Assembly (NCBI GenBank): GCA_030428585.1
Contig: JAUIDL010000006.1
Coordinates: 1 to 19,764 of the forward strand
Source: a bacterium
GTDB taxonomy: Bacteria; Patescibacteriota; Saccharimonadia; Saccharimonadales; Saccharimonadaceae
Length of the DNA stretch: 19,764 nt
Direction: 5' to 3'
The notes beneath the pieces are model-generated. The model saw only the letters and a list, made by a program, of their open reading frames with translations. It had not been told where the DNA came from and made no database searches. The position numbers and the translations under genes are program-made. Positions within the stretch are counted from its first letter, which is position 1, and every line of letters starts with the position of its first letter. This document shows, piece by piece, positions 6,144-19,763 of the stretch.

Positions 6144-7122
6144 AGTCGGTGCTCGCTTTGTCGCTGGCGTTAATTAATTCGTTCAGAATTTTTTCGTATT
6201 CATCGTAGACTTTGAAGCCGGCTGAATACTCGTGTCCCCCGCCGCCAAAATAGCCAGCGATGTGGTGCGCAATCGGAACGTTTGAGCGGATTTTTCCGGT
6301 CAACTTACCATCAGGGTAAGTTTTGATGGCCACGGCGACTTCTACCGTATCAACCAGACGCATTTCGTCCAGAACGAGGATGCTCGGATTGTAACGATCG
6401 CTATACTGCTCGATGTCTTCCCAAGGGATGTGGACAGTCGCTAGTTTACCTTCGACGTGGTATTGAATTCGTTCAATCAATTCGCCCTTATAGTGCAAGA
6501 TATCGGCCGGTTTCTTCATGTATTCGCGACGGCGCGATTCGATGGTTGAGGGAACGGCGCCCAAGGCGACTAAATCGGCGGCAACTTGGTAGCTACGTGC
6601 GTCGGTCGCTGGCGTCGTTAGGCCAAGGCTATCGGCTTGAATTGAAATAAAGAGGAGTTCGGCGATGTCTGGGGTGATTTCCCATGCTTGTTGTTTGGCT
6701 AGGTCGTAAATCACTTGACCTGTTGCGACAGCGCTTTCGTCTAAAACGCTATCATGAGCAAACGGTAACTCCTCTCCCATTTCTTGGTGGTGGTCGATGA
6801 CGACAACCGGATGGTGTTCCAGAAAATGGCGAACACCGTCGTATTCGAGCATCTTTGTTAGTAATAATTCACTATTGGTGTCGACAAAAATTGCTAGATC
6901 GGCGTCGTACGGCCAATCTTTGACGACTCGGTCCCAGCCAGGAATATAATACAGGTATTTTGGAATGTCGATGGCACAAAACAGCACAACTTCTTTGCCG
7001 GCGTTACCAAGCAGTGCTTCCAGCGCCAGCGCACTCGAAAGACTGTCACCATCCGGATTTTCGGCCTGGACAATGACAATTTTGCGGGCATCCGCCAACC
7101 GGGCTGTAATTGATTCAAACAT
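6124..7122 (-). CDS. DHH/DHHA1 phosphoesterase, NrnA-like
   Basis: 332-aa metal-dependent phosphoesterase of the DHH superfamily, most like NrnA/RecJ-type enzymes that degrade oligoribonucleotides or cyclic dinucleotides. Motif I is AENPDGDSLSS (about 20-30), where a Glu stands in place of the usual His of HxNPDGD. Motif II is IFVDTNS, motif III VVIDHHQ, and motif IV DESAVATG. The C-terminal DHHA1 domain carries GGGGHEYSAGF. The His-to-Glu change in a metal-ligand motif is unusual and could shift metal use or substrate. The gene lies 18 bp after recR, overlaps cysS by 20 bp, and also has a TACAAT box 7 nt before its ATG inside the recR 3' end, so it may also be expressed on its own as a leaderless message. 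Confidence 0.92.
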   Translation of the reverse strand: MFESITARLADARKIVIVQAENPDGDSLSSALALEALLGNAGKEVVLFCAIDIPKYLYYIPGWDRVVKDWPYDADLAIFVDTNSELLLTKMLEYDGVRHFLEHHPVVVIDHHQEMGEELPFAHDSVLDESAVATGQVIYDLAKQQAWEITPDIAELLFISIQADSLGLTTPATDARSYQVAADLVALGAVPSTIESRRREYMKKPADILHYKGELIERIQYHVEGKLATVHIPWEDIEQYSDRYNPSILVLDEMRLVDTVEVAVAIKTYPDGKLTGKIRSNVPIAHHIAGYFGGGGHEYSAGFKVYDEYEKILNELINASDKASTDYATAIS

Positions 7123-7129
7123 TACATTT

Positions 7130-7135
7130 ATTGTA
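7130..7135 (-). promoter_or_regulatory. Candidate internal -10 box for the DHH gene
   Basis: Minus-strand TACAAT 7 nt before the ATG at 7122, just downstream of the recR stop. No convincing -35 is present, and the start has no Shine-Dalgarno, matching the leaderless arrangement seen elsewhere in the window. Confidence 0.45.
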
Positions 7136-7140
7136 GCAGA

Positions 7141-7755
7141 TTACAGACTACGCCGTCCTTCAAGCGCATGTGACAACGTAATCTGATCCGCGTATTCGAG
7201 GTCGACGCCAACCGGAATGCCGCGCGCGAGACGGCTCATCGTCACCTCGACGCCAGCATCGCGCAGGTATTTTTGTAGAAACAATGCGGTTGACTCACCT
7301 TCAACACTAGCGTTGGTAGCGATAATAATTTCTTCGACACTATCTTTTTTGATGCGGTCGAGTAGTTCGGGAATGTGGAGTTGCTCTGGCCCCACGCCGT
7401 CAATCGGACTGATTGCTCCGCCGAGGACGTGGTACGTGCCTTTGAATTGACCGGTTCGCTCGATGGCGACAATGTCGAGGGGCTCTTCAACGACGGCAAT
7501 CAATGTTTTGTCACGGTCACTGTCGGTATAGAGGGGCGAGATGTCTTGGTCGGCGTCAATCAGGGCAAACGTCACCGGACAGGTCTTCACCTGATGGTGG
7601 ATGTCGTGAATGGCGTTGGCTAATGAATCATTGATGCGTTGCTCTGCCCGCAGCAAATAATAGGCGTAGCGTTCGGCAGTACGCGAACCAACACCCGGTA
7701 GTCTGCCGAGTTCATCGATCAATTTTTCGAGGGCTGCGGGCAGCAAACGCGCCAC
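7141..7755 (-). CDS. recR: Recombination mediator RecR without its zinc finger
   Basis: RecR loads RecA at gaps with RecO/RecF; 204 aa, normal length. The N-terminal helix-hairpin-helix is LPGVGSRTAE (19-28). The Toprim domain begins at about 84 (LIAVVEEP, then VLGGAISPIDGVGP) and ends with RLARGIPVG. The region between (about 56-83) is where RecR normally carries a four-cysteine zinc finger. Only the first cysteine (Cys59) is left; the others are replaced by non-ligands although segment length is kept. The start is GTG, 2 bp after the ybaB stop, so the two are translationally coupled, matching the widespread ybaB-recR pairing. Confidence 0.96.
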   Translation of the reverse strand: MARLLPAALEKLIDELGRLPGVGSRTAERYAYYLLRAEQRINDSLANAIHDIHHQVKTCPVTFALIDADQDISPLYTDSDRDKTLIAVVEEPLDIVAIERTGQFKGTYHVLGGAISPIDGVGPEQLHIPELLDRIKKDSVEEIIIATNASVEGESTALFLQKYLRDAGVEVTMSRLARGIPVGVDLEYADQITLSHALEGRRSL

Positions 7756-7757
7756 GG

Positions 7758-8048
7758 CTACAGTCCTAGGTTGCCGAGACCGCCCATTAGTGGCTTCATT
7801 TTTTCGGCTGCGACTTCTTGAGCTTTGGCGAGGCCATCGCGAGTCGCAATTTCAATCCAGTGCTCAAGTTCGTGAATATCATCCAGGTCAACGCGTTCTG
7901 GGTCGATGGTGACTTTCTTCACTTTTAATTCACCAGTCACCTGGACAACGACTGCGCCGTCACCGGCTTCAACTTCAATAATTTCCTTTTTCAGGTCATT
8001 CTGCGCTTTACGCAGCTTGTTCAACATTTTCATTTGGTCAAATGCCAT
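7758..8048 (-). CDS. ybaB: YbaB/EbfC nucleoid-associated protein
   Basis: 96-aa DNA-binding protein of the YbaB/EbfC family, which forms tweezer-like dimers on DNA and is normally encoded beside recR. The sequence starts FDQMKMLNKLRKAQ and has the family core VTGELKVKKVTIDPE, then a C-terminal helix with MGGLGNLGL. It is the first gene of ybaB-recR-DHH-cysS. The leader is ordinary: a TATAAT box 36 nt upstream and a GAGGG element about 10 nt before ATG. In many bacteria dnaX directly precedes ybaB; here dnaB and a membrane-protein gene lie between them. Confidence 0.95.
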   Translation of the reverse strand: MAFDQMKMLNKLRKAQNDLKKEIIEVEAGDGAVVVQVTGELKVKKVTIDPERVDLDDIHELEHWIEIATRDGLAKAQEVAAEKMKPLMGGLGNLGL

Positions 8049-8084
8049 ACTACACTTCCCTCTTCTGTCATTAAGTACTTCTTA

Positions 8085-8090
8085 ATTATA
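8085..8090 (-). promoter_or_regulatory. -10 box of the ybaB operon
   Basis: Minus-strand TATAAT in the gap between ybaB and the upstream membrane-protein gene, 36 nt before the ybaB ATG. The -35 region is poor. The roughly 30-nt leader contains a GAGGG ribosome-binding element. Confidence 0.5.
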
Positions 8091-8092
8091 CG

Positions 8093-9529
8093 TTACTCGG
8101 TCGGGTTTTGGTACACGTAGAATCTGTCAGCCGCTCCAGAGAACGGACTGGTGATGATGCGGGTGATGTCGTACGTGTTCTCAACGTTTGGTCGGGCTGC
8201 TCGCGAAATCACAAAACGAGCGCTATCGGCTGGCGGATCGAGACTGACTTGTAAATCGCTGCGATAGTGGGCGACCGTTTGATAAAAATCTAGTTCACTG
8301 TCGGCAACAACCAGGCGGGTCGTGTCTTTTGGAAGGAGCGCTAGATCACGCGAAAAGCTCTCGGCGATATTTGGCGAATAGTGATAGCCGTAAAAGTACC
8401 GATCGATACCTGAGGTAATCAGCACCGCCACCAAGACGATAATCGGGATTAGTCCCGCTACCCGTGCGTATGGGTTCAATGGGAAAAGCCGATACCAGTA
8501 CGTGATCAAACTCGTCAGCCCAGCTGCAAGTAACATCACTGCTGGAATAAATACGATCGTCACGTACCGCGGGTCGATGAGGAGCACGGGGATCAGCACG
8601 ACAATCCAACTAATTAACAAGTAACTTCGCGTGGTGTCGAGTGTGCGGATGAGCCCATAGAGTCCAACACCAATCAAGAGAGCCGTCCCTATGCCAAAGA
8701 CTGGTGTAATCACGGTTGTCGTATCCGGCGCCCAGAAAACGAAGTATTGCACCAAGAGCGTTTGCATATTTTCGATGACATTCGGCATAGATGTCGGGAT
8801 GCCGAGCAAGGATAGACCCAATTGTGGGTTGAGGATCAACATCGTAATCAGCGGCGCCGCCAGCAACAAAGCGATACTACTCGCGACAATCAGCTGGGGC
8901 TTTTGCATGCGCCTGACGGCATTACGCAGATGTGGGTGCAGCATGATCGTGAATGCCACCGCAAGCCATAGGTAAAAGCTGAGCGGTGAATACAGACTCA
9001 GAATAGCGCTGGCGGCAAACAGGACCTTCCAGAGCATCGGAAAACGCTGCGAGCGTGTCACTTGTGTACCAAGGAATAATAAGATAACCGCCCAGAAGAC
9101 ATACATAATGCTTGGCGTGCCACTTTGCGCGATATAAATAAATTGCCCGGTTGCAATAGCAATCAATGATGCGAGTACGGAGATGCTCGGTGGAAACCAG
9201 CGCCGCAACAGAAAGATTAAGGCAACCGCAGCAATCGATCCGAGAATCAGTGAAGGCAACTTGATGGTGAACTCACTGATACCAAATACCTCTAAAATAC
9301 CCGCTTGTAACAAGTGATACGGGAGGTGGATGATCGTAAAGCTGCTGGGGTCGCTGAGCGATAATGCGCCACTACGAATGACAGACGCTTGTTCGGCTTG
9401 GCTCAAACCGCCGGGAACATAGAGTCCTGCGAATACCAACATACCCGCCAAGAGCAGGCCGAGAAAGGTGTACCCCAGCGCGTAGCGCCATCGATACAAA
9501 AAAGTTTCCGTCAGTGTTATACGTGCCAT
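8093..9529 (-). CDS. GT-C type membrane glycosyltransferase (ArnT/PMT-like)
   Basis: 478-aa protein with about ten or more hydrophobic segments and a short C-terminal soluble region from about residue 385. Layout resembles GT-C (family 39/83) glycosyltransferases that use polyprenyl-phosphate sugars: a first membrane helix (about 15-37), then a loop with GGLSQAEQAS, an amphipathic stretch with HLPYHLL, and a second helix after KLPSLILGS. The catalytic loop of this family normally has an Asp-Glu pair; only a single Glu is seen (SQAEQ), so the enzyme may be divergent or the function different. The gene lies between ybaB and dnaB, with its own extended -10 promoter and an estimated 5-nt leader. 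A role in cell-surface glycan assembly is inference. Confidence 0.7.
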   Translation of the reverse strand: MARITLTETFLYRWRYALGYTFLGLLLAGMLVFAGLYVPGGLSQAEQASVIRSGALSLSDPSSFTIIHLPYHLLQAGILEVFGISEFTIKLPSLILGSIAAVALIFLLRRWFPPSISVLASLIAIATGQFIYIAQSGTPSIMYVFWAVILLFLGTQVTRSQRFPMLWKVLFAASAILSLYSPLSFYLWLAVAFTIMLHPHLRNAVRRMQKPQLIVASSIALLLAAPLITMLILNPQLGLSLLGIPTSMPNVIENMQTLLVQYFVFWAPDTTTVITPVFGIGTALLIGVGLYGLIRTLDTTRSYLLISWIVVLIPVLLIDPRYVTIVFIPAVMLLAAGLTSLITYWYRLFPLNPYARVAGLIPIIVLVAVLITSGIDRYFYGYHYSPNIAESFSRDLALLPKDTTRLVVADSELDFYQTVAHYRSDLQVSLDPPADSARFVISRAARPNVENTYDITRIITSPFSGAADRFYVYQNPTE

Positions 9530-12474: not shown

Positions 12475-12504
12475 CCAAGGAACACATAGATATATGTTGC
12501 TTGG
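12475..12504. repeat. Imperfect hairpin in the 12.5 kb intergenic
   Basis: The forward strand reads CCAAG G AACA C ATA, then TAT A TGTT G CTTGG, an imperfect 12-pair stem with two symmetrical mismatches. It lies beside the GC-rich stem at 12510-12533. Together they make a structured stretch between an unrecognised gene and dnaX. It could be a 3' end element or part of a small RNA; nothing decides. Confidence 0.4.
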
Positions 12505-12509
12505 GACTG

Positions 12510-12533
12510 CCGGCTCTCTTGGGCGAGAGCCGG
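12510..12533 (-). terminator. GC-rich 3' stem-loop after the 172-aa gene, no U-tract
   Basis: CCGGCTCTC (12510-12518) pairs perfectly with GAGAGCCGG (12525-12533) around a 6-nt loop, and outer GGG/CCC arms (12503-12505, 12537-12539) can extend it. It begins about 15 nt after the stop codon at 12549. There is no run of U on the minus strand, so this is not a textbook intrinsic terminator. Confidence 0.6.
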
Positions 12534-12548
12534 ATGCCCTGTTACTGG

Positions 12549-13067
12549 TTAGCGCCCAGCCCACGCTTTCGCGCGGTTCTGGAGCTGGATGGCCACGTCA
12601 CGATTGATCAGGCCGAAGCCACGGTCATCGACCTTGCGGAGGACTGCTTCGATGGTCTGAATCGGTCCTAGGAAGTCGGAGATGGTCGTCATCAGACGTC
12701 GGTTGTAGATCCAGGTCAGTTCCTTCATGGGTTCAACAATGAGCTGATCGCCGATGATGCGTGCGTGTAGCAAATCAGCTGGCGCAAGCATGGAACCTCC
12801 TCGTTCGTTTTGAACGTAGAGACGCGGATGCTCGGTGCGCGCCCGCAAGCGAAGCCCTCGCTCTTGGACGAAAGTCTCGATGGCGTTGACTGCCCCGATG
12901 TCCATGTACTTGTAGCTGAGTAGCTGGTCGCGTGTGTGCACTAGAACCAGTGAGAAACTGTTGACCAGTTTTTCTCGGATTGTGCTGGTTGCATGTGGAT
13001 TCAGCCGTCTGATCAGCTCTTCCATGGCTTCTGTCGTCATCGGCGTGGCGCTGTGGGTCGGACTCAT
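12549..13067 (-). CDS. Unrecognised 172-aa protein, possible alpha-CTD-like domain
   Basis: No firm family assignment. Residues about 13-78 weakly resemble the C-terminal domain of the RNA polymerase alpha subunit: a helix with LNPHATSTIREKL, then TRDQLLSYKYMDIGAVNAI and ETFVQERGLRLR, in the order of alpha-CTD's NLG-K-helix-GL pattern. If real, it would suggest DNA or transcription-factor contact. The rest is mixed helix/strand without membrane segments; one GG pair (residues 90-91) may be a turn. The start ATG at 13067 has a near-perfect GGGAGGTGA ribosome site, quite unlike neighbouring conserved genes. It has its own promoter, a hairpin at the 5' end of the transcript and a GC-rich stem-loop just after the stop. 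Codons look richer in G/C at third positions than those of rplL or dnaX, hinting at separate origin. Confidence 0.8.
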   Translation of the reverse strand: MSPTHSATPMTTEAMEELIRRLNPHATSTIREKLVNSFSLVLVHTRDQLLSYKYMDIGAVNAIETFVQERGLRLRARTEHPRLYVQNERGGSMLAPADLLHARIIGDQLIVEPMKELTWIYNRRLMTTISDFLGPIQTIEAVLRKVDDRGFGLINRDVAIQLQNRAKAWAGR

Positions 13068-13102
13068 GTCACCTCCCGGTGAAAATTGTGATGTAACAGA
13101 AC

Positions 13103-13126
13103 AGTCGACATCGGATGACGTCGACT
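13103..13126 (-). promoter_or_regulatory. 5'-terminal hairpin of the 172-aa gene's mRNA
   Basis: Minus-strand AGTCGACGTC, loop ATCC, GATGTCGACT: ten pairs with one G-U. The -10 box at 13132-13137 would start transcription at about 13125-13126, so the RNA would begin directly with this stem. Such 5' stems protect mRNA from decay; as DNA it is also a good operator dyad. Confidence 0.6.
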
Positions 13127-13131
13127 ATACT

Positions 13132-13160
13132 ATTATACTATATTTACAGATAAATTACAA
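13132..13160 (-). promoter_or_regulatory. Promoter of the 172-aa gene
   Basis: Minus-strand TTGTAA (13155-13160), 17-bp spacer, TATAAT (13132-13137). The -35 hexamer includes the stop codon of the upstream CPR-protein gene. The predicted leader is about 58 nt. Confidence 0.7.
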
Positions 13161-13673
13161 GGCTGCTTCGACTGCTGCCCACACGGCGTCAGGGTTATCG
13201 GCCGGTACAATAATGGTGACTTGGTCGCCAACATTAATGCGGAAGTATGTGACGCTCGCGAGCAGGATGCGGTATTCTTTGCCATTAGCTTCGACATAAT
13301 AGGCGCCGTCGTGTTGTACTAATGTTCCAATCACTTGGATTCGTTCGACTGGACCGATTTGCTTGTAGATAAAGGTGCCGTCGTCGGCGATGGTGAGCTT
13401 CAGCATGTCACCTTCGACTAGTTTTGATTTACTGGCGTAGTTTGCGGGGACAGGGTATTCTTTACCGTCTGGTCCGGCCATTTTTTGTCCGTCAAAGATC
13501 CCTTCAACGACTTTCCCGCTGACTTCTTCGTGGCTAGCGGATTTTGGTGAGATAATGCTGCCGTCGTCACCGACAATGCTAATCAGGAGTTCCTTGGCGG
13601 CTGCCAAGTTAGTTTCTGCTTCTTGAATCAATGCATGCAAGCGCTTGACTTGTTTCTCTGGTAGTTCAGACAT
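13155..13673 (-). CDS. Conserved CPR-type protein, coiled coil plus beta domain
   Basis: 172-aa cytoplasmic protein of a type I recognise as widely conserved in Patescibacteria but without a known function. A charged N-terminal helix (about 5-33) likely forms a coiled coil. A beta-rich part follows with GKVVEGIFDGQKM, GPDGKEYPVPANYASKSKLVEGD and TFIYKQIGPVER, then a second small domain ending NPDAVWAAVEAAL. The repeated short strands with glycine turns suggest OB- or TRAM-like barrels, perhaps binding RNA or the ribosome; this is inference. The frame is open for 26 more codons upstream, but the ATG at 13673 begins the conserved MSELPEKQ. Spacing from the only GGA-rich stretch (about 15 nt) is longer than usual. 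It has its own promoter and its stop codon forms part of the next promoter. Confidence 0.9.
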   Translation of the reverse strand: MSELPEKQVKRLHALIQEAETNLAAAKELLISIVGDDGSIISPKSASHEEVSGKVVEGIFDGQKMAGPDGKEYPVPANYASKSKLVEGDMLKLTIADDGTFIYKQIGPVERIQVIGTLVQHDGAYYVEANGKEYRILLASVTYFRINVGDQVTIIVPADNPDAVWAAVEAAL

Positions 13674-13722
13674 ATGGGTACTCGCAATTCCTTTGTCTAT
13701 TTTTGTAGTGCTATTACCTTCA

Positions 13723-13751
13723 CTTATAGCAAGCTTATAACAAAAAGTCAA
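13723..13751 (-). promoter_or_regulatory. Promoter of the CPR-type protein gene
   Basis: Minus-strand TTGACT (13746-13751), 17-bp spacer, TATAAG (13723-13728). The predicted leader is about 43 nt. Confidence 0.7.
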
Positions 13752-13808
13752 TAATCCGTAAAGCCCGAAACGTTATCCACATGATTTCTCGAGATGATGT
13801 GTAAATCG

Positions 13809-13864
13809 TTGTTAAAATTAACAAATGTTCAATTATTTACTAAAATAACAAATAGTTGTATAGT
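13809..13864 (+). promoter_or_regulatory. Promoter and dyad upstream of the 142-aa gene
   Basis: TTTACT (13836-13841), 17-bp spacer, TATAGT (13859-13864). Upstream, TTGTTAA AA TTAACAA (13809-13824) is a perfect inverted repeat with a 2-bp centre. A further AACAAAT recurs between the hexamers. The dyad could bind a repressor or activator. Confidence 0.55.
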
Positions 13865-13912
13865 ATATGTATTGCCACATCGGCAAGTACCCACTACGAA
13901 AGAGAGCTCCCT

Positions 13913-14341
13913 ATGGACCAAAAAACGAGTTGGGTGCCAGTTACCTCTGCCCCCAAGCTCCGCATCGTTGTTCCCTATCGTGATTATCGGGATGCCCGTG
14001 TCACCTTGAAGATTCTCGTCCTTGATCCCGAATTGAAAATCGGGGCGTTCCAACCTCGAGTCATCGCCAATCGTTTGCGCTCGGTTGAGGGCATTGATCA
14101 GGGCCATACCATTGATGTCCGCTTCGACGATACGTCGACATCGCTCGTGTTTCGAGTCACGGAAATACCAATGACTTCCACGACCGAGTACACCGTTATG
14201 TCGACAGTATTCTTGATGGTCGCTGATGGCCTTCGAGTGGCTTCTGAAGATGTTCAGGTATCGTTGGGGAATGACGATGGTCAGACTCCTTTGTCCGAGT
14301 ACATTCAGTGGCGCACAAAGCGCTATCGAGTACCTTCCTGA
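13913..14341 (+). CDS. Unrecognised 142-aa protein
   Basis: No family recognised. The protein is soluble and looks beta-rich in its first two thirds (LRIVVPYRDYRD, VTLKILVLDPELKIG, TIDVRFDDTSTSLVFRVTEIP), then has a helix-prone region and a basic end, WRTKRYRVPS. The ATG at 13913 was chosen because the frame's earlier start (13856) lies inside the promoter; a GAGAG element precedes it by about 10 nt. It is the first gene of a two-gene unit, with the next start 8-11 nt after its stop. Isolated between conserved genes on the opposite strand, it looks like part of an accessory insertion. Confidence 0.72.
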   Translation: MDQKTSWVPVTSAPKLRIVVPYRDYRDARVTLKILVLDPELKIGAFQPRVIANRLRSVEGIDQGHTIDVRFDDTSTSLVFRVTEIPMTSTTEYTVMSTVFLMVADGLRVASEDVQVSLGNDDGQTPLSEYIQWRTKRYRVPS

Positions 14342-14352
14342 ATCGAGGAATG

Positions 14353-14724
14353 ATGGTGTCTGATACGCAAAAAGCGGCCGTCACGTTATCGATTCGAGAA
14401 CCCGGAGTTGTCATGTCTATCAAGTTTCCGATAGGTACTGCCAATCGACAGTCCTTTCGTGAAACGCTGGTACGGCACGACGTTCTGGAGCCATCTCAAT
14501 ACTACTCTGTGAACAAAGAGATAGTACACATCGGCGTTAAAGATATGGACGACGCAATCAGTCGAGTCCTATGCGCGGTTAAAGCCGTCGCCGAGCACTT
14601 GGAGATGGACGTCGAACGCCTAACGGTGCTTTCTTACATCCAGGACGATTTGTTCTTTGGGACCTTCAACCAGTTCCGGCTCCGCATAGGCCAGCTCATC
14701 GTCGCTCGTGGTACCGCCAGATGA
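14353..14724 (+). CDS. Unrecognised 123-aa protein
   Basis: No family recognised. An N-terminal strand-rich portion (AAVTLSIREPG, VVMSIKFPIG) is followed by a helical section (DMDDAISRVLCAVKAVAEHLEMDVERL) and a short end containing RLRIGQLIVARG. The start is uncertain: ATG 14350, ATG 14353 and GTG 14356 all follow GAGGA at 14345-14349; spacing favours the later two. A GTG at 14308 would overlap the upstream gene and lacks a ribosome site. The close spacing shows co-expression with the 142-aa protein, and the two may work as a pair. A CCCCCC/GGGGGG stem-loop begins 7 nt after the stop. Confidence 0.7.
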   Translation: MVSDTQKAAVTLSIREPGVVMSIKFPIGTANRQSFRETLVRHDVLEPSQYYSVNKEIVHIGVKDMDDAISRVLCAVKAVAEHLEMDVERLTVLSYIQDDLFFGTFNQFRLRIGQLIVARGTAR

Positions 14725-14730
14725 GGCACA

Positions 14731-14759
14731 CCCCCCTTATGATCAAGTCATCTGGGGGG
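14731..14759 (+). terminator. C6/G6 stem-loop after the 123-aa gene, no U-tract
   Basis: CCCCCC (14731-14736) pairs with GGGGGG (14754-14759), with inner ATGA/TCAT pairing (14739-14742, 14748-14751) around TCAAG. It follows the TGA at 14724 by 6 nt, and no U-run follows. Confidence 0.6.
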
Positions 14760-14770
14760 ATTCTCATAGC

Positions 14771-14803
14771 AAAAAATACGCCCTCGCAATTGAGGGCGTA
14801 TTT
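14771..14803 (-). terminator. Intrinsic terminator of rplJ-rplL
   Basis: AAATACGCCCTC (14774-14785) pairs perfectly with GAGGGCGTATTT (14792-14803), 12 bp with a 6-nt loop. On the minus strand it ends in a six-U run (14771-14776), right after the rplL end at 14834. On the plus strand the U-run is weaker (TTTCTATT), so it may also back up the convergent accessory unit. Confidence 0.9.
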
Positions 14804-14833
14804 CTATTCCGATAACATTCGGCCGAAAATAAA

Positions 14834-15214
14834 TTACTGTAGCTCGACGCTTGCACCAGCTTCTTCGAGGGTCTTCTTTGCCTCTTCAGCTTCTTCTTTT
14901 GGTACTTTTTCCTTAACGGTTGCAGGTGCCCCGTCAACGATTGCTTTTGCTTCACCAAGACCAAGACCGGTAATGTCTTTAACAGCCTTGATAACTGCTA
15001 CTTTTTGCGCACCAGCGTCCTTCAGGACGATAGTGAATTCGCTCTTTTCGTCTTCTGCTGGAGCAGCGTCGCCGCCAGCAGCAGGGCCAGCAACAACTGC
15101 TGCAGCTGCAGCAGGCTCGATGCCGTATTCATCCTTCAGGATGGTCTTGAGTTCGTTTACCTCAAGGACAGTCAGACCGGTAAGGGTCTCTGCCAATTTC
15201 TTTAGATCAGCCAT
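14834..15214 (-). CDS. rplL: Ribosomal protein L7/L12
   Basis: Stalk protein that recruits translation factors to the ribosome; 126 aa. N-terminal dimerisation helices ([22 protein letters not shown]), an Ala/Gly/Pro-rich flexible hinge at about 34-55, and the C-terminal factor-binding domain with [21 protein letters not shown] and [13 protein letters not shown]. Strong GGAGG ribosome site before the ATG. It follows rplJ by 42 bp on the minus strand, giving the conserved rplJ-rplL order, and ends in a clear intrinsic terminator. Confidence 0.99.
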
Positions 15215-15256
15215 GATAGCCTCCTTTTAATATATCGATTGGTTATGAAAAATTGA

Positions 15257-15781
15257 TTAACTGGTTGCTTTTGCTTCCACACCATCCAGCAACGCGTGCA
15301 AGTTGCCCGAAAGCGCGTTGGTAACGTCGTGAACAGGAGAAAGCAGCTGAGCGACCACTTCGGCAATAAGTTGACTCTTGCTTGGTAGCGAAGCTAGGGC
15401 TTTGACGTCGTCAGCGCTCATCAGAACACCGTCGCTCGACAATCCGCCGGCAATGACCAATGCATCGTTGTCCTTGGCGAAGTCGTTCAGGACTTTGGCA
15501 GGAATCACTTCGTCGTCACTACTTACTGCGTACAGTAATTGGCCACCGAGTCCGCTGGTGTCGAGATCTTTGTAGGCGTCAATACCGCTCAAAGCGACGC
15601 GAACCAAACGGTTCTTGACGACTTTGATTGTCACACCATTCTCACGTGCCTGGGCACGGAGCTTTTGTAGATCAGCCACGCTGAGGCCTTGGTAGGCCGC
15701 GTAGACGGTGGTTTTTGCGCTCGAGAGGAGCTCAGTAAGGTCAGCAACCAATTCGTTCTTTTTATCGCGACTAATTGCCAT
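15257..15781 (-). CDS. rplJ: Ribosomal protein L10
   Basis: Base of the ribosomal L7/L12 stalk; 174 aa. Typical opening MAISRDKKNELVADLTELLSSAKTTVYAAYQGLSV and the conserved VVKNRLVRVAL segment, then a C-terminal helix that binds L7/L12 dimers. The frame is open for 43 more codons upstream, but those run through the regulatory leader; the ATG at 15781 has GGAG 6 nt before it and begins the conserved protein. A leader of about 190 nt with an L10-leader-like fold and an attenuator precedes it, so L10 probably controls its own operon. Confidence 0.98.
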   Translation of the reverse strand: MAISRDKKNELVADLTELLSSAKTTVYAAYQGLSVADLQKLRAQARENGVTIKVVKNRLVRVALSGIDAYKDLDTSGLGGQLLYAVSSDDEVIPAKVLNDFAKDNDALVIAGGLSSDGVLMSADDVKALASLPSKSQLIAEVVAQLLSPVHDVTNALSGNLHALLDGVEAKATS

Positions 15782-15971
15782 AAAAATCTCCTTGGTTAGT
15801 TTTTTCGGCCGAGTTGTCAAAGGTCGAGACAGTTGGCAGAACGACAAACAAAAAGTCTTTGGTTCTCGCAGCTGCCAAAGACTAGAAGATGTATGGTGTA
15901 AGAAATACATTTCCTCGGTAGCGGATTAAGCGTCGTTTCCTTCGCGGCTACTGTCTTTGGGATGTCTACAA
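15782..15971 (-). ncRNA. L10-leader-like cis-regulatory RNA
   Basis: 5' leader from the predicted start near 15971 to the rplJ ATG. It contains GTAGC (15944-15948) that can pair with GCTAC, with AAGGAAACGACG and CTTAATCC between them, then CCGAGG, features shared with L10 leaders of other bacteria. Outside this lie CCCAAAGAC (15953-15961) and AGTCTTTGG (15875-15883), which can pair and enclose it. The second segment can instead pair with CCAAAGACT (15854-15862) to form a terminator. The family call is by motif and position only. Confidence 0.75.
15846..15883 (-). terminator. Attenuator in the rplJ leader
   Basis: Minus-strand AGTCTTTGG (15883-15875), a 12-nt loop, then CCAAAGACT (15862-15854) and a U-rich run TTTTTGTTTG. 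This is a perfect 9-bp intrinsic terminator placed about 70 nt before the rplJ start, where it can stop transcription before the gene. Confidence 0.8.
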
Positions 15972-15977
15972 GAGGTG

Positions 15978-16006
15978 ATTATACACTTTGGCACGCGCAA
16001 AGTCAA
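15978..16006 (-). promoter_or_regulatory. Strong rplJ-rplL promoter
   Basis: Minus-strand TTGACT (16001-16006), 17-bp spacer, TATAAT (15978-15983). The best match to consensus in the window, as expected for ribosomal protein genes. Confidence 0.9.
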
Positions 16007-16025
16007 GATTGTCTCGCTGAAAAAG

Positions 16026-16053
16026 TTGACTTTATTTGTCAATCTTATATCAT
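16026..16053 (+). promoter_or_regulatory. Promoter of the 44-aa/96-aa gene pair
   Basis: TTGACT (16026-16031), 16-bp spacer, TATCAT (16048-16053), with a leader of about 40 nt. The -35 hexamer is one arm of an inverted repeat TTGAC TTTATTT GTCAA (16026-16042), a possible operator. This promoter is back to back with the rplJ promoter. Confidence 0.5.
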
Positions 16054-16098
16054 AGTCATTATCATTGGGATGTCCAGTGATCGAATATAGGGAGATGT

Positions 16099-16233
16099 AT
16101 GTCGAACAGTTCTCGTGGGTCAGGTTCTCGCACTGGTAAGCCGGCGGATGCGCACAAGCAGATGCCGAAGCCGCAGCCGCCGCGGCCGATGGTAATCGCC
16201 AGTCAGACCCACCAGGGATACCGACGCAGCTAG
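16099..16233 (+). CDS. Small 44-aa basic, proline-rich protein
   Basis: I translated MSNSSRGSGS RTGKPADAHK, then QMPKPQPPRP MVIASQTHQG YRRS. The protein is Ser/Gly/Pro/Gln-rich and basic, without hydrophobic segments, and is probably disordered. GGGAG lies 4 nt before the ATG. Its stop is embedded in the next gene's ribosome site (TAGGAGG), so the downstream start is translationally coupled. No family is recognised. The strong ribosome site and coupling argue that it is a real gene or a leader peptide. Confidence 0.68.
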   Translation: MSNSSRGSGSRTGKPADAHKQMPKPQPPRPMVIASQTHQGYRRS

Positions 16234-16242
16234 GAGGCAGAT

Positions 16243-16533
16243 ATGCCCGAAACTGATATCACGCCAGAAAAAGCCGACGGAGTGGATGTATTCGTCGCCC
16301 GTTGCCTCGAGGCGCTTCAGAATAAAAATGTCTCGCCTGACGAGCTCGCAACACTGATGGCAAGGCTGTGGCGTGCCACCGGGCTTGGCCGAACAGAGGT
16401 GCGTCTGGTAGTGCAGGAGCATTTCCGATTGGGGAGCTACGCCTCGTTGAAAGCAGAGCCGCGGCAGCTTTTACTTCTGAGCCAGTTTTTGGGTATCAAT
16501 CCGCCCCTTGCTCGGCCCAAGCAGCCCCACTAA
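16243..16533 (+). CDS. Unrecognised 96-aa helical protein
   Basis: No family recognised. Likely all-helical: DGVDVFVARCLEALQNKN, SPDELATLMARLWRATG, RTEVRLVVQEHFRLG and PRQLLLLSQFLGIN, with a Pro-rich end. The pattern of short amphipathic helices suits a protein-interaction or small DNA-binding fold, but nothing in the sequence decides between them. The ATG follows an AGGAGG site that contains the stop of the 44-aa gene, so the two are made together. A 15-bp perfect stem-loop starts 10 nt after the stop codon. Third codon positions look G/C-rich compared with the rplJ-rplL genes nearby. Confidence 0.75.
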   Translation: MPETDITPEKADGVDVFVARCLEALQNKNVSPDELATLMARLWRATGLGRTEVRLVVQEHFRLGSYASLKAEPRQLLLLSQFLGINPPLARPKQPH

Positions 16534-16542
16534 AACTCAGCC

Positions 16543-16585
16543 GGGTGGCCACGCAAGACTCTTTGCCGAGCTTGCGTGGCCACCC
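16543..16585 (+). terminator. 15-bp GTGGCCAC stem-loop after the 96-aa gene
   Basis: GGGTGGCCACGCAAG (16543-16557) pairs perfectly with CTTGCGTGGCCACCC (16571-16585); CTC/GAG in the loop extends it. No U-run follows. The core recurs in the stem-loop at 16950-16984. Confidence 0.7.
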
Positions 16586-16591
16586 CCAACC

Positions 16592-16608
16592 CCCCTCTGT
16601 CAGAGGGG
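16592..16608 (+). repeat. Second small hairpin
   Basis: CCCCTCT (16592-16598), loop GTC, AGAGGGG (16602-16608): a 7-bp perfect stem directly after the 15-bp stem-loop and 7 bp before the next promoter. Possibly a tandem barrier to read-through. Confidence 0.5.
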
Positions 16609-16615
16609 TATTAAA

Positions 16616-16644
16616 TTGCATTTTATTAAAAAATGTGATATAAT
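16616..16644 (+). promoter_or_regulatory. Promoter of the 85-aa gene
   Basis: TTGCAT (16616-16621), 17-bp spacer, TATAAT (16639-16644). Predicted leader about 27 nt with GAGGAGG near its end. Confidence 0.85.
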
Positions 16645-16677
16645 GAAATTATCGTTCATCTACCTGAGGAGGATATA

Positions 16678-16935
16678 GTGAGCGACGCAACCATCACCAA
16701 GGCGAACGACACGCAAGTTCGCCACGCGGTGCAGGCACTGGTCGACGACTACGCAGACAAGGTCCACGGTTCCCGTGGTATCCCAGTCGTGATGATCGCC
16801 AAGCGCGTGCGTGAGATGGAGGAGATGGGCATCACCCGTTCCACGATTCACGCACATGCGGTGAACATCGTGGCTGATGCCGAAGTTAGCTACGGCGTGG
16901 ACTTCGAGCCGCTGTACCGCTTCCTCCGGGGCTAG
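16678..16935 (+). CDS. Unrecognised 85-aa protein, possible helix-turn-helix
   Basis: Starts at GTG 5 nt after GAGGAGG. Mostly helical: TQVRHAVQALVDDYADKV, then IPVVMIAKRVREMEEMG, ITRSTIHAHAVNIVADAEV, and a short end YGVDFEPLYRFLRG. The middle two helices with the ITRSTIHAHA turn resemble a helix-turn-helix or winged-helix core, so it may be a small DNA-binding protein; I do not recognise the family. About 24 of the first 30 codons end in G or C, unlike conserved neighbours. It has a near-consensus promoter, a perfect ribosome site, and is bracketed by two stem-loops with the same GTGGCCACGC core, so it looks like a self-contained expression unit. Confidence 0.8.
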   Translation: MSDATITKANDTQVRHAVQALVDDYADKVHGSRGIPVVMIAKRVREMEEMGITRSTIHAHAVNIVADAEVSYGVDFEPLYRFLRG

Positions 16936-16949
16936 TCCCTGAACATCTC

Positions 16950-16984
16950 GGTGGCCACGCCAGACAATTGTCGGCGTGGCCACC
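16950..16984 (+). terminator. 12-bp GTGGCCAC stem-loop after the 85-aa gene
   Basis: GGTGGCCACGCC (16950-16961) pairs with GGCGTGGCCACC (16973-16984); the loop holds the palindrome GACAATTGTC. It shares GGTGGCCACGC and its complement with the stem-loop at 16543-16585. Confidence 0.7.
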
Positions 16985-16993
16985 GCGCCACCA

Positions 16994-17023
16994 CCCCGAG
17001 TTATTCGGGGATTATTTTATTTC
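16994..17023 (+). terminator. Intrinsic terminator
   Basis: CCCCGA (16994-16999), loop GTTAT, TCGGGG (17005-17010), then ATTATTTTATTT. A standard terminator for the 85-aa gene, lying partly in the 3' end of the convergent thymidylate-kinase gene. Confidence 0.8.
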
Positions 17024-17686
17024 TATAAGTCGCTCGACTCGTTTCCATAGCGCACTAAATATTTCGTCTTCGGTGCCACTTGCGTCTTGTAAGTCAAGAC
17101 CTTTGAGCATACCGTATCGGGTGTAGCCATCCTGCATGTTTGACTGGAAGTTGTCATCTTTTGACTCAAACGTATCAAGTTTACTACGGTCATCCCTGCT
17201 ACCCATGCGTTGCCGACGTTTCGCTTCGCTTCTGAGTGTCAAAATCACTAATAAATCTGGAGTCATATACGCTTCTCCAACGTGGGTACGGGTATACTCT
17301 TCGATCGCATCGAGTGAGATTCCCTCACCGTAGCCTTGATAGGCAATTGTCGAAAGCCAGTTGCGCGCGCAGACGACCCATAAGCCCGATTCGAGGGCTG
17401 GTTCAATCGCTTGGTTATAACTTAAGACTCGCGAATCGGTAAACCACTCTACATTTTGCCAAGGAGTTCGAGGGATACTGGCATCTTTAATTTTTCGGCG
17501 GAGGATATCTGCCTCAGGTGTTCCGCCGGGCTCTTGAATTGGCTCGAATTCACCTGTGTCGGGATTAATAACATGAAGTGTATCAAAGCCAGCAGCACGA
17601 AGACCTTGATCGATACGTCGTGCTTGCGTTGTTTTCCCTGTTCCGTCACCACCCTCGATAACGATGTATTTTCCGCGTTCCGCCAC
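17012..17686 (-). CDS. tmk: Thymidylate kinase-like protein
   Basis: Probable dTMP kinase (dTMP to dTDP), 224 aa from the GTG at 17686. P-loop GGDGTGKTT at about 12-20, EPGGTP at about 52-57, and the AYQGYG element near 115-120. The conserved DRx motif before it is altered: Cys-Ala-Arg-Asn (106-109) keeps the Arg but loses the Asp. A lid-like basic stretch (RSEAKRRQRMGSRDD) follows. An upstream in-frame ATG at 17776 would overlap dcd by 90 bp; the GTG, whose first base is shared with the dcd stop in TAGTG, is preferred because the protein then starts just before the P-loop strand. It ends the thyX-dcd-tmk unit. Confidence 0.87.
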   Translation of the reverse strand: MAERGKYIVIEGGDGTGKTTQARRIDQGLRAAGFDTLHVINPDTGEFEPIQEPGGTPEADILRRKIKDASIPRTPWQNVEWFTDSRVLSYNQAIEPALESGLWVVCARNWLSTIAYQGYGEGISLDAIEEYTRTHVGEAYMTPDLLVILTLRSEAKRRQRMGSRDDRSKLDTFESKDDNFQSNMQDGYTRYGMLKGLDLQDASGTEDEIFSALWKRVERLIEIK

Positions 17687-18684
17687 TACTTCACACCCTC
17701 CGCAAGACCCTCGACTGGCCGAGGCAGTTTGATCTCGTTTTTGTGAGCTCGCGGGATCATGTGATGCGGACGCCATGCCTGCTTGACCCGAATCAGGTCG
17801 TCAGATGACTGGGCCTGATAGTTACCCGAAGCCTGAGAATACTCGGTACCGACTGGCCCGGTTTGCGACATGACGATTTGCGCGATTCGCCACCCCGCGG
17901 GCAGGGGCACATAGTCGCTTTCGTTGAGATTATGAATTTCCATCGTCCAGCGATCGATATAGCCCGGGTCACCCCAGCCGGCACAGTAACAAGCCGAAAC
18001 GCCAATCCGTCCAGTGGTGCTCCTTGCCTGCATTGAAGTTGTTCCTGGCGGGCGGATGTCAATAAATTCATGGGTATGGGCCAAAATGCGTTCGTTAGGC
18101 CGTAGTAGGATGATTGGGTGATCCTCGGGTATAGTCTCGAGACTATCAGTCTGGAAGTACTCGCGCAGAATTTCTGTGTCGAGGAGACCCTCATCCTCTA
18201 GTTTATCGCGAACGTCTTTAAACGGTTTTGCTTGAAGGAAGCCATCACCGTCTTCATCGGTAGCGAACTGACGAAACGTCGATTGCTGATCGAAGGGGTT
18301 AAAGAGCCGTGATTGTTTGTGTTTGCCGGCTGTATAGAAATTGTATCCTAGGGTGACGTCAATACTCGACCCATTGATGCGTGCGCCGTGGTCGGGTGTT
18401 GGCTCTGGGTCACATACCATGTGGCCAATATCAAGCCCGACGCGGAGTTCGCGGTCGGAAAAAACACCACCACTGAGCCCTGAATTAAGGACATAGGTTC
18501 GTTGGCTGGTTAAAACAGGCAGCTTATTAATATCAAGCAGTTCGGCGGAAAGACCTAATTCATCAGCAAATCGCTGCGCAAAAGCTGCAGCACCCGTCGC
18601 CTGAATACCAAGATACCGTTCGGCGGTCTCCCGCGCATCGAGGTCGATGACGCGCTCACCGGCGATTTCCAAAAATTCTGCCAT
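17686..18684 (-). CDS. dcd: dCTP deaminase-like protein with N-terminal extension
   Basis: Deoxycytidine-triphosphate deaminase/dUTPase superfamily, making dUTP or dUMP for thymidylate synthesis. The family core begins at about 76 (SDRELRVGLDIG), with RINGSSIDVTLG at 102-113, the catalytic RSTTGR at 221-226, and Glu249 in the TMEIHN strand. Length is 332 aa against about 190 in ordinary Dcd: there is an N-terminal extension of about 75 residues and an insertion of about 70 (125-195). The extension has no recognised domain. Whether it is mono- or bifunctional (deaminase plus dUTPase) cannot be told. ATG at 18684 has AGGGAAG before it. No promoter is visible in the 96-bp gap to thyX, and the stop overlaps the tmk start, so all three genes are probably one operon. 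Confidence 0.87.
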   Translation of the reverse strand: MAEFLEIAGERVIDLDARETAERYLGIQATGAAAFAQRFADELGLSAELLDINKLPVLTSQRTYVLNSGLSGGVFSDRELRVGLDIGHMVCDPEPTPDHGARINGSSIDVTLGYNFYTAGKHKQSRLFNPFDQQSTFRQFATDEDGDGFLQAKPFKDVRDKLEDEGLLDTEILREYFQTDSLETIPEDHPIILLRPNERILAHTHEFIDIRPPGTTSMQARSTTGRIGVSACYCAGWGDPGYIDRWTMEIHNLNESDYVPLPAGWRIAQIVMSQTGPVGTEYSQASGNYQAQSSDDLIRVKQAWRPHHMIPRAHKNEIKLPRPVEGLAEGVK

Positions 18685-18723
18685 ACTTCCCTATTCCCTC
18701 ATAAATCTTGTGTTGTTCCCAGC

Positions 18724-18764
18724 CCGTCGACCTCGCCTGCTCGGATGAGCAAGGAGGCCGACGG
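18724..18764 (-). terminator. Long stem-loop between thyX and dcd
   Basis: Minus-strand CCGTCGGCCTC pairs with GAGGTCGACGG (11 bp, one G-U), continued after a small bulge by TTGCTC/GAGCAG around loop ATCC. It starts about 16 nt after the thyX stop and has no U-run. It may be a partial terminator or a processing/stability element inside the operon. Confidence 0.6.
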
Positions 18765-18780
18765 TGCTGAGGTGGAGTGC

Positions 18781-19665
18781 TCAGGCTGCGAGCGCGAAGT
18801 TGTCCTCGTTCGGTAGCGTCTTCCGGTACTGAGTCCAGCCACGGAAGTTGCCCGAGAACTTGGTCGGGTCGTCCGCCGGCGTCGCCACGTGTTCGCAGGG
18901 CGACATGTGACCAGAGGTCACGAGACGTACGAACAGCTCGATGTCCTTGTCGAAGTCGCGAACACCGTCGTGTGTCAGGTAGCTGACTCGAGCACAGCGA
19001 CCAACGCTGACCTTGATGGCTTCAAGTGGGTTGGCCTCGGCCCACTCGCGCTCATCTAGCTGGATGAACGGCAGGTGCCATTCGCCCTTCTTGAGCTGAC
19101 GAGGAGTCGATTCGTCGATCGCCTTGCGCATTGCCGCAGCCGCCACCTGAATCTCAGGCTGAGCCTGTGGGTTGTCGCGCAGTGCGAAGTAGTTCTCCCA
19201 CTCGGTCGCCGTGACGACGACCGTGTGCCACATGAACGGCTCGAGCAGTCGGTTGGTGACCTGCTTGTGAATCCCGATCTTGTAGAGGATCCACGCGAAG
19301 ATGATCGCGCAGTCCCGCGCCCGCAACCAGGCGAACCGTGCCAGCATGATCTTGAAGGCGGAGACTTCTGCCCCTGCCTGCATGCCGCTCTGGTTCGCTC
19401 CCCAGTGGATGGGGATGTACGGGTTGCGCCAGACCATCGCCCGCTGCTTTTTGAACGGAATCGCTCGCGAACTCGCGGAGTTCCGCGAGAACATCCGATG
19501 CGTGTTGAACTCGGCCAGGATGAAACGGTTGAAGACCACGACCAGCGTGATCAATCGCACCCCTTCCTCACTGATCGAGTCGGCGATTACCCGTGCCGAA
19601 AAAGTGGTCTTTTCCGGCTTGTCACGGCCAATAAGCCGTGTGAACCACTCTCTCAGACGGTTCAT
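18781..19665 (-). CDS. thyX: FAD-dependent thymidylate synthase
   Basis: Makes dTMP from dUMP with FAD and methylene-tetrahydrofolate; 294 aa. The ThyX signature is present as THRMFSRNSASSRA (55-68), the variant of RHRxxSxxxxSxR found in a larger ThyX subgroup that includes phage enzymes. A roughly 60-residue helical section follows (about 95-150), and the C-terminal part has VTATEWENYFALR and SGHMSPCEHVA, both conserved in ThyX. The ATG at 19665 is preferred: GAGGG lies 7 nt upstream. An earlier in-frame GTG at 19722 falls inside the -10 region. Codons are visibly G/C-rich at third positions, more so than dcd and tmk, and the gene ends in a GC-rich stem-loop, suggesting a separate origin for this member of the operon. 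Confidence 0.95.
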   Translation of the reverse strand: MNRLREWFTRLIGRDKPEKTTFSARVIADSISEEGVRLITLVVVFNRFILAEFNTHRMFSRNSASSRAIPFKKQRAMVWRNPYIPIHWGANQSGMQAGAEVSAFKIMLARFAWLRARDCAIIFAWILYKIGIHKQVTNRLLEPFMWHTVVVTATEWENYFALRDNPQAQPEIQVAAAAMRKAIDESTPRQLKKGEWHLPFIQLDEREWAEANPLEAIKVSVGRCARVSYLTHDGVRDFDKDIELFVRLVTSGHMSPCEHVATPADDPTKFSGNFRGWTQYRKTLPNEDNFALAA

Positions 19666-19720
19666 CGTTACCCTCTCTCGAAGTCTTGAGCAAACTCTGA
19701 ATGTTCGCCCACCTTTTTCC

Positions 19721-19763
19721 ACTATACCCTACCCCAGCATACTTTTTTGGACTTTTTGTCGAA
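19721..19763 (-). promoter_or_regulatory. thyX promoter region
   Basis: Two overlapping candidates on the minus strand: TTCGAC (19758-19763), 16-bp spacer, TATGCT (19736-19741); or TATAGT (19721-19726) with only an A-rich -35. I cannot choose between them. Either gives a leader of roughly 50-65 nt. Confidence 0.45.

Follow-up and report, generated by a model that had tools for sequence, protein, structure and literature searches.

Why do genes of unlike kind, lying on both strands among housekeeping genes, each end in a GC-rich hairpin? This question is raised by a 19,764-nucleotide contig (C37, hereafter the window, meaning the whole stretch analysed) from a 697,248-base assembly (87 contigs; ~87% complete) of Saccharibacteria, a tiny symbiotic bacterium with a genome of ~50% GC. 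The window carries dnaX, recR, rplL, rplJ, tmk, a dCTP-deaminase-family gene (dcd), thyX and five stem-tailed units, thyX being one of these; the names dnaX, recR, rplL and rplJ come from the sequence and from a first-pass annotation. That annotation had described five units with a GC-rich stem-loop shortly after the stop codon, and we found a stem in each case, at a spacing of 6-13 nt:

12504..12539, minus strand: 3' stem of a 172-aa gene, 9 nt from the stop to the outermost pair; z -6.14, 0/200 shuffles as good
14731..14759, plus strand: 3' stem of the 142/123-aa unit, 6 nt from the stop; z -2.16, 6/200 shuffles as good
16543..16585, plus strand: 3' stem of the 44/96-aa unit, 9 nt from the stop, core GGTGGCCACGC; z -6.80, 0/200 shuffles as good
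16949..16985, plus strand: 3' stem of an 85-aa gene, 13 nt from the stop, core GGTGGCCACGC; z -5.53, 0/200 shuffles as good
18718..18771, minus strand: 3' stem of thyX, 9 nt from the stop; z -7.57, 0/200 shuffles as good

Four stems lay far beyond their shuffled counterparts, and the 142/123 stem, equalled by six shuffles, is therefore marginal and the weakest of the five. As had been noted, the stems are unlike in sequence except for the two with a common core, which has four exact matches in the assembly, all inside the stems of the 96-aa and 85-aa genes. An Rfam scan of the window at the gathering threshold matched none of the five; its sole match was the L10 leader RF00557 (15840-15978, minus strand, 47.6 bits), which sits upstream of rplJ.

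The further traits ascribed to the units fared unevenly. Raised G+C content at third codon positions (GC3) held for thyX and the 85-aa gene (both 0.79), the 44-aa gene (0.71), the 172-aa gene (0.67) and the 96-aa gene (0.62), but the 142-aa (0.56) and 123-aa (0.60) genes resemble their neighbours. GGAGG-type ribosome sites were present as GGAGG or AGGAGG at the 172-, 96- and 85-aa genes, as GGGAG at the 44-aa gene, as GAGAGGG at thyX and as CGAGG at the 123-aa gene, with none at the 142-aa gene. A U-tract was indeed absent directly behind all five stems, but a second stem with a T-rich tail (16994-17010) follows the 85-aa stem and the rplL terminator follows the 142/123 stem. The statement that conserved neighbours lack these features was not confirmed: tmk has a CCCCGA..TCGGGG stem 1 nt after its stop and, being convergent with the 85-aa gene, shares that gene's stem from the opposite strand, and rplL has an ordinary terminator. 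Neither recR nor cysS is usable as a control, because the next gene lies 18 nt behind recR and the last 4 nt of cysS are shared with a convergent gene.

We scanned 3' ends for stems and compared them with GC3 in a sample of the genome and in the genus. A strong GC stem was one of -15 kcal/mol or lower, with 70% GC pairs, starting no more than 25 nt from the stop; genes were called with a simple codon score, and only those with a free 3' side were kept. In the discovery sample (41 contigs including the window, 315,029 bases, four window genes entered by hand), strong stems followed 4/161 genes with GC3 below 0.60, 3/19 at 0.60-0.66, 7/16 at 0.66-0.75 and 8/12 above. A second sample, kept apart from discovery, drew on 20 additional contigs and on stretches from three relatives. 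It was run through a slightly changed routine in which high-GC3 genes lay at least 0.15 above the set's median and ordinary genes less than 0.10 above it; ten intermediate genes, one with a stem, were set aside. Strong stems stood behind 7/25 high-GC3 and 6/296 ordinary genes (p 9e-6), or, by genome, 1/4 and 1/82 in G000, 1/10 and 0/82 in G007, 3/5 and 5/62 in G013, and 2/6 and 0/70 in G008. When 20 syntenic stretches were added (high at least 0.15 above the median, ordinary within 0.08 of it, remaining genes dropped), the pooled counts were 31/74 high-GC3 versus 15/605 ordinary 3'-free genes, with a Fisher p of 3e-22 that comes from related, not independent, sequences. Stems are thus not equally common behind ordinary genes, and a class with a common 3'-end architecture, as first proposed, is supported at both levels, genome sample and genus. 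Nor are the stems a by-product of composition, since the mean shuffle z over 60 nt was -2.44 behind 73 high-GC3 genes and -0.40 inside 73 such genes (-0.92 behind 150 sampled ordinary genes). The Shine-Dalgarno (SD) site alone was rejected as the correlate: of the 3'-free genes that combine ordinary GC3 with an SD site and a leader of middle length, 4/75 had a strong stem.

The position occupied by thyX allowed the architecture to be followed across relatives. In most of the genus the rplJ region has a backbone of this slot, dcd, tmk, a ~310-380-aa gene (lacking in the window), rplJ, rplL, a 172-aa gene and dnaX; dcd was not found in G005 and G006. The slot holds a thymidylate synthase in 13/17 members: a long ThyX in six (G000, which is the window's own genome, G001, G005, G007, G009, G011), ThyA in four (G002, G004, G008, G010) and a canonical ThyX in three (G003, G006, G012). 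These kinds fit by Pfam in ten of the 13 and in G000, and by blast in G001 and G011. GC3 is raised in every one of the 13 (+0.09 to +0.35), and each is followed by a stem, that of G004 starting ~27 nt after the stop and missed by the automatic routine. Another gene occupies the slot in G014-G016, and G013 has a thyA at another place in the stretch retrieved, its GC3 ordinary and no strong stem behind it; 4/5 of the genus thyA genes are GC3-rich and stem-tailed. Many members also have small high-GC3, stem-tailed genes, either downstream of rplL or in the interval that separates the 310-380-aa gene from rplJ.

Canonical thyX shows that the architecture persists. Among G003, G006 and G012 its protein is 75-81% identical (neighbours 59-94%, rplJ 75-80%), and fourfold-site identity is 0.40-0.42, where 0.30-0.32 would be expected at saturation; G+C content at fourfold sites (GC4) is 0.68-0.78 versus 0.39-0.68 in neighbours, and the stems, at about -30, -43 and -47 kcal/mol, are unlike each other in sequence. 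High GC4 and strong stems retained near synonymous saturation speak for upkeep. The slot has seen gene exchange as well: between G001 and G007, identity is 44% for thyX against 91% for dcd, with both flanks and the stem alike.

One stem family links two non-homologous genes. The 3' stems of thyA (G004, G010) and canonical thyX (G003, and G134 from another genus) are related in sequence, and with G144 added, making five related sequences, both sides had changed at 7/21 pairs, a count equalled in 0/500 shuffles and reaching at most 1 in slid versions. A single stem family with compensatory changes thus lies behind both thyA and thyX genes. Among 91 3' ends compared with each other the stems were mostly unlike.

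Outside the genus, thyA rarely had these traits. At 28 thyA loci (30 retrieved minus two from the genus; 193 genomes had a match), GC3 was -0.11 to +0.17 relative to neighbouring frames, and the stem threshold was reached at two, both within the apparent next coding frame; a same-strand frame of at least 60 aa lay within 40 nt at 20/28. Four of six well-matched canonical thyX loci had raised GC3 and a stem, and two had neither. The long thyX stem was found in the six genus genomes and at three further named loci (weak at L163); outside the genus, a fragment in G021 had a stem and none stood out in G040 and G053. Among viral sequences 58 loci matched thyX, and the 19 examined showed no architecture in common. 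The 85-aa gene had one weak viral match and the 172-aa gene none.

The class carries other marks. GC3 was 0.72-0.75 (in stem-tailed genes and in those at least 0.20 above) against 0.48, with both C and G increased at third positions, and first and second codon positions (GC1, GC2) shifted by no more than 0.025 (0.604/0.402 in stem-tailed high-GC3 genes versus 0.581/0.399). Leaders and SD sites were counted in genes with a recognisable -10 (26 class and 160 ordinary genes without one were set aside). Class leaders had a 10th percentile of 36 and a median of 49 nt (n = 49), and ordinary leaders, many of them short or absent in this genus, a 25th percentile of 3 and a median of 27 nt (n = 355). 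At least four matching SD bases were found in 37/49 class versus 123/355 ordinary genes, and an SD-like triplet or better in 47/49 versus 194/355. In the class, GC content begins to climb at about -50 relative to the start codon, and beyond that point the upstream DNA matches that of ordinary genes in its AT-richness (67 versus 357 genes). Class proteins are mostly of unknown kind, with Pfam matches in at most 5/38 and PHROG matches in at most 3/38 scanned (34 of 42 listed genes plus four more; thyX, which matches a phage family, was left out), and a 478-aa class gene had a match in 2/294 genomes, its own counted. At L144 of G007 (6775-8393) three high-GC3 genes of 77, 215 and 234 aa adjoin, the first two with products that look ubiquitin-like and ThiF/E1-like, as judged from sequence. 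Translational optimisation was rejected as the cause of high GC3, as the codons of rplJ, rplL and one further ribosomal protein are unlike those of the class (GAA 0.82 versus 0.38).

In the window itself, -10 sites could be predicted by consensus for all five units. The genes and signals are:

12549..13067, minus strand: 172-aa orphan gene, SD GGGAGG
13103..13126: perfect palindrome with 10-bp arms, immediately following the -10 of the 172-aa orphan; resembles an operator, or may be the 3' stem of the gene at 13155-13673
13132..13137, minus strand: predicted -10 TATAAT of the 172-aa gene, with TTGTAA 17 nt upstream
13155-13673: second 172-aa gene, part of which resembles MazE below threshold (E 0.024)
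13913..14341, plus strand: 142-aa gene
14353..14724, plus strand: 123-aa gene, its start set by the length given in the first-pass annotation; the open reading frame opens at 14308
14771..14803: the ordinary rplL terminator, a stem flanked by A and T that comes shortly after the 142/123 stem
16048..16053, plus strand: predicted -10 TATCAT of the 44/96 unit, with TTGACT 16 nt upstream
16099..16233, plus strand: 44-aa gene
16243..16533, plus strand: 96-aa gene, SD AGGAGG
16592..16608, plus strand: short second stem behind the 44/96 stem
16639..16644, plus strand: predicted -10 TATAAT of the 85-aa gene
16678..16935, plus strand: 85-aa orphan gene, SD GAGGAGG
16994..17010, plus strand: second stem with a T-rich tail, an ordinary-type terminator that adjoins the tmk stop behind the 85-aa stem
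17686..18684, minus strand: dcd, GC3 0.54, PF22769 (E 3.9e-27)
18781..19665, minus strand: thyX, PF02511 (E 1.6e-11), phrog_85 (E 3.9e-79)
19708..19713, minus strand: GGTGGG, close to where the thyX leader is presumed to start
19721..19726, minus strand: predicted -10 TATAGT of thyX

The 172-aa orphan at 12549..13067 had relatives in 0 of 60 other genomes and only itself as a protein database match; the gene at 13155-13673 is kept between rplL and dnaX in relatives. A GGTG element like that of thyX lies close behind the -10 in the leaders of unrelated thyA and thyX genes of the slot, which was compared in 13 genus members, and is a candidate regulatory element; G005 differs, and G011 escaped the pattern search yet shows the element. 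Base pairing between the start of the leader and the post-stop sequence looked suggestive by eye, but in the slot true combinations paired no better than permuted ones (12/13 genomes usable; p 0.18, 0.82). Over 64 class genes p was 0.016 and 0.068, and the idea was rejected.

By what signal might the units end? The first-pass annotation had offered factor-assisted termination, which is unlikely to mean Rho: its RNA-binding domain PF07497, the only domain sought, was detected in 0/17 genus genomes and 9/14 control genomes. With Rho not found in any of the 17, the units must end by hairpins, other factors or readthrough. By the test applied, a U-tract was lacking at 19/31 strong stems of high-GC3 genes and 13/15 of ordinary genes, and TTTT within 20 nt of the stop occurred in 0/74 class versus 86/605 ordinary genes. 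A canonical terminator lay within 75 nt behind 8/33 class stems and behind 145/601 ordinary stops. Since the GC stem is the only discernible end signal at the other 25/33, a U-poor intrinsic terminator that also caps the 3' end is favoured.

The explanation to which we give an even chance is that the stems end autonomous leadered units as U-poor intrinsic terminators or 3' protectors, the transcribed part staying GC-rich. Such a unit comprises one or two genes behind a predicted -10 promoter of their own, a leader of ~30-70 nt, an SD site and a GC-rich frame, closed by a long GC-rich hairpin within ~30 nt of the stop. As Rho was not detected in the genus, the hairpin would most likely serve as an intrinsic terminator whose U-tract is poor or missing, and would then stay attached to the transcript, capping its 3' end against exonucleases. 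The transcribed part keeps its high GC content over time, and genes can be swapped within the frame, as with ThyA and two kinds of ThyX in one slot. The data show the architecture, its association with high GC3, its persistence and the compensatory changes of one stem family, whereas we infer from sequence that the stems terminate and stabilise RNA and that high GC3 is caused by selection on the transcript; gene conversion or ongoing transfer may also be that cause. A selected transcript class in an epibiont without detectable Rho, whose other genes often have a short leader or none, and in which leader, SD site, GC-rich frame and GC-rich 3' stem are built for long-lived mRNA and orphans and three thymidylate synthase kinds are exchanged inside the frame, is a tentative and rather doubtful extension.

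Several observations weigh against the U-poor terminator explanation. The simple gene caller admits false frames; 43/74 high-GC3 genes have no strong stem by the criterion used, G007 by itself has one at just 1/10, and the 142/123 unit has ordinary GC3. The GC difference in leaders may partly stem from leader length. A U-tract is present at 12/31 strong class stems, and U-tract hairpins of -8 kcal/mol or lower tend, if anything, to be more frequent behind high-GC3 genes (21/74) than behind ordinary ones (79/605), although a stricter terminator pattern points the opposite way (11/76 versus 145/601). Because of these U-tracts and the frequent weaker hairpins that have one, lacking a U-tract is no defining mark of the class. 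Finally, no recognisable promoter was found for the window dcd behind the thyX stem, which may then lie within a thyX-dcd-tmk transcript. In favour of the explanation, G001, G007, G009 and G012 have a promoter-like TACAAT separating the stem from dcd (by eye).

We consider it unlikely that the genes arrived by recent transfer from higher-GC phages, plasmids or actinobacterial hosts, bringing their own U-poor terminators. The 172-aa and 85-aa proteins lack relatives, unlike genes occupy the slots in relatives, thyX matches a phage family and is 56% identical to one in a Microlunatus, and the divergent thyX of G001 and G007 beside a well-kept dcd suggests replacement. The phage or plasmid source that had been put forward is nonetheless not supported: GC1 and GC2 are nearly unmoved, the upstream DNA is native-like, phage and Pfam families are rare among the 38 proteins, and canonical thyX has diverged like its neighbours and yet keeps high GC3 and a stem near saturation. 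Non-genus thyA rarely has either trait, and by eye five non-Saccharibacteria thyX genes lacked a single stem of this sort. The set resembles a maintained mode of gene expression more than DNA recently acquired from outside.

GC-biased gene conversion, in which frequent recombination of genes in exchange-prone slots pushes their GC3 upwards and the stems are ordinary terminators caught up in the same drift, seems to us quite improbable, despite the joint rise of C and G at third positions and the turnover of the slots. The hypothesis has been published for bacteria (PMC4450053), and Saccharibacteria are reported to be naturally transformable (PMC10633639). DNA upstream of the promoter is not GC-rich, however, and folA-like genes facing thyA in G002 and G010 have ordinary GC3. 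That GC-rich ends merely fold better by chance or composition is very improbable indeed: genes and stems are both GC-rich and the 142/123 stem is marginal, but shuffles, intragenic controls and compensatory changes all speak otherwise.

Bacterial orphan and accessory genes tend to be AT-rich; many of those studied here are rich in GC3 and have leaders, ribosome sites and 3' stems in common. A scattered GC-rich class with its own start signals and 3' hairpins is unusual, and in the literature searched we recognised nothing as this gene class. If the class is kept by RNA selection, expression mode and RNA lifetime could become readable from sequence in uncultured Patescibacteria, and composition alone should not mark such genes as foreign. 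Because three kinds of enzyme occupy a single position, the thymidylate synthase slot offers a natural experiment in gene replacement.

Among known systems, repetitive extragenic palindromic (REP) elements and integron attC sites are GC-rich imperfect palindromes behind genes. The stems here differ in being mostly unlike: where REP elements come in many copies, the sole core examined occurs in two stems, and no cassette arrays were seen (attC motifs were not searched). Prophage morons are autonomous units of promoter, gene and end signal with deviant composition among other genes. The five units resemble them in their predicted autonomous promoter and end signal, but lie between housekeeping genes, keep their composition and include a thymidylate synthase; phage families, thyX excepted, were as scarce as given above. 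The canonical intrinsic terminator shares the GC-rich hairpin after the stop, with its U-tract absent at the five window stems and present at 12 of 31 in the class. Stabilising 3' mRNA stems stand at a unit's end and keep their structure while the sequence changes, a likeness seen here at the level of sequence. Also close are the U-poor intrinsic terminators, debated in mycobacteria, which likewise have a GC-rich hairpin soon after the stop, often with little or no U-tract, and do not need Rho. One report (PMC12288462) mentions terminators without a poly-U tail, and titles cited there fall on both sides of the debate. What sets the present stems apart is that, in a genome of ~50% GC, these putative terminators are tied to a class of genes with high GC3 and longer leaders.

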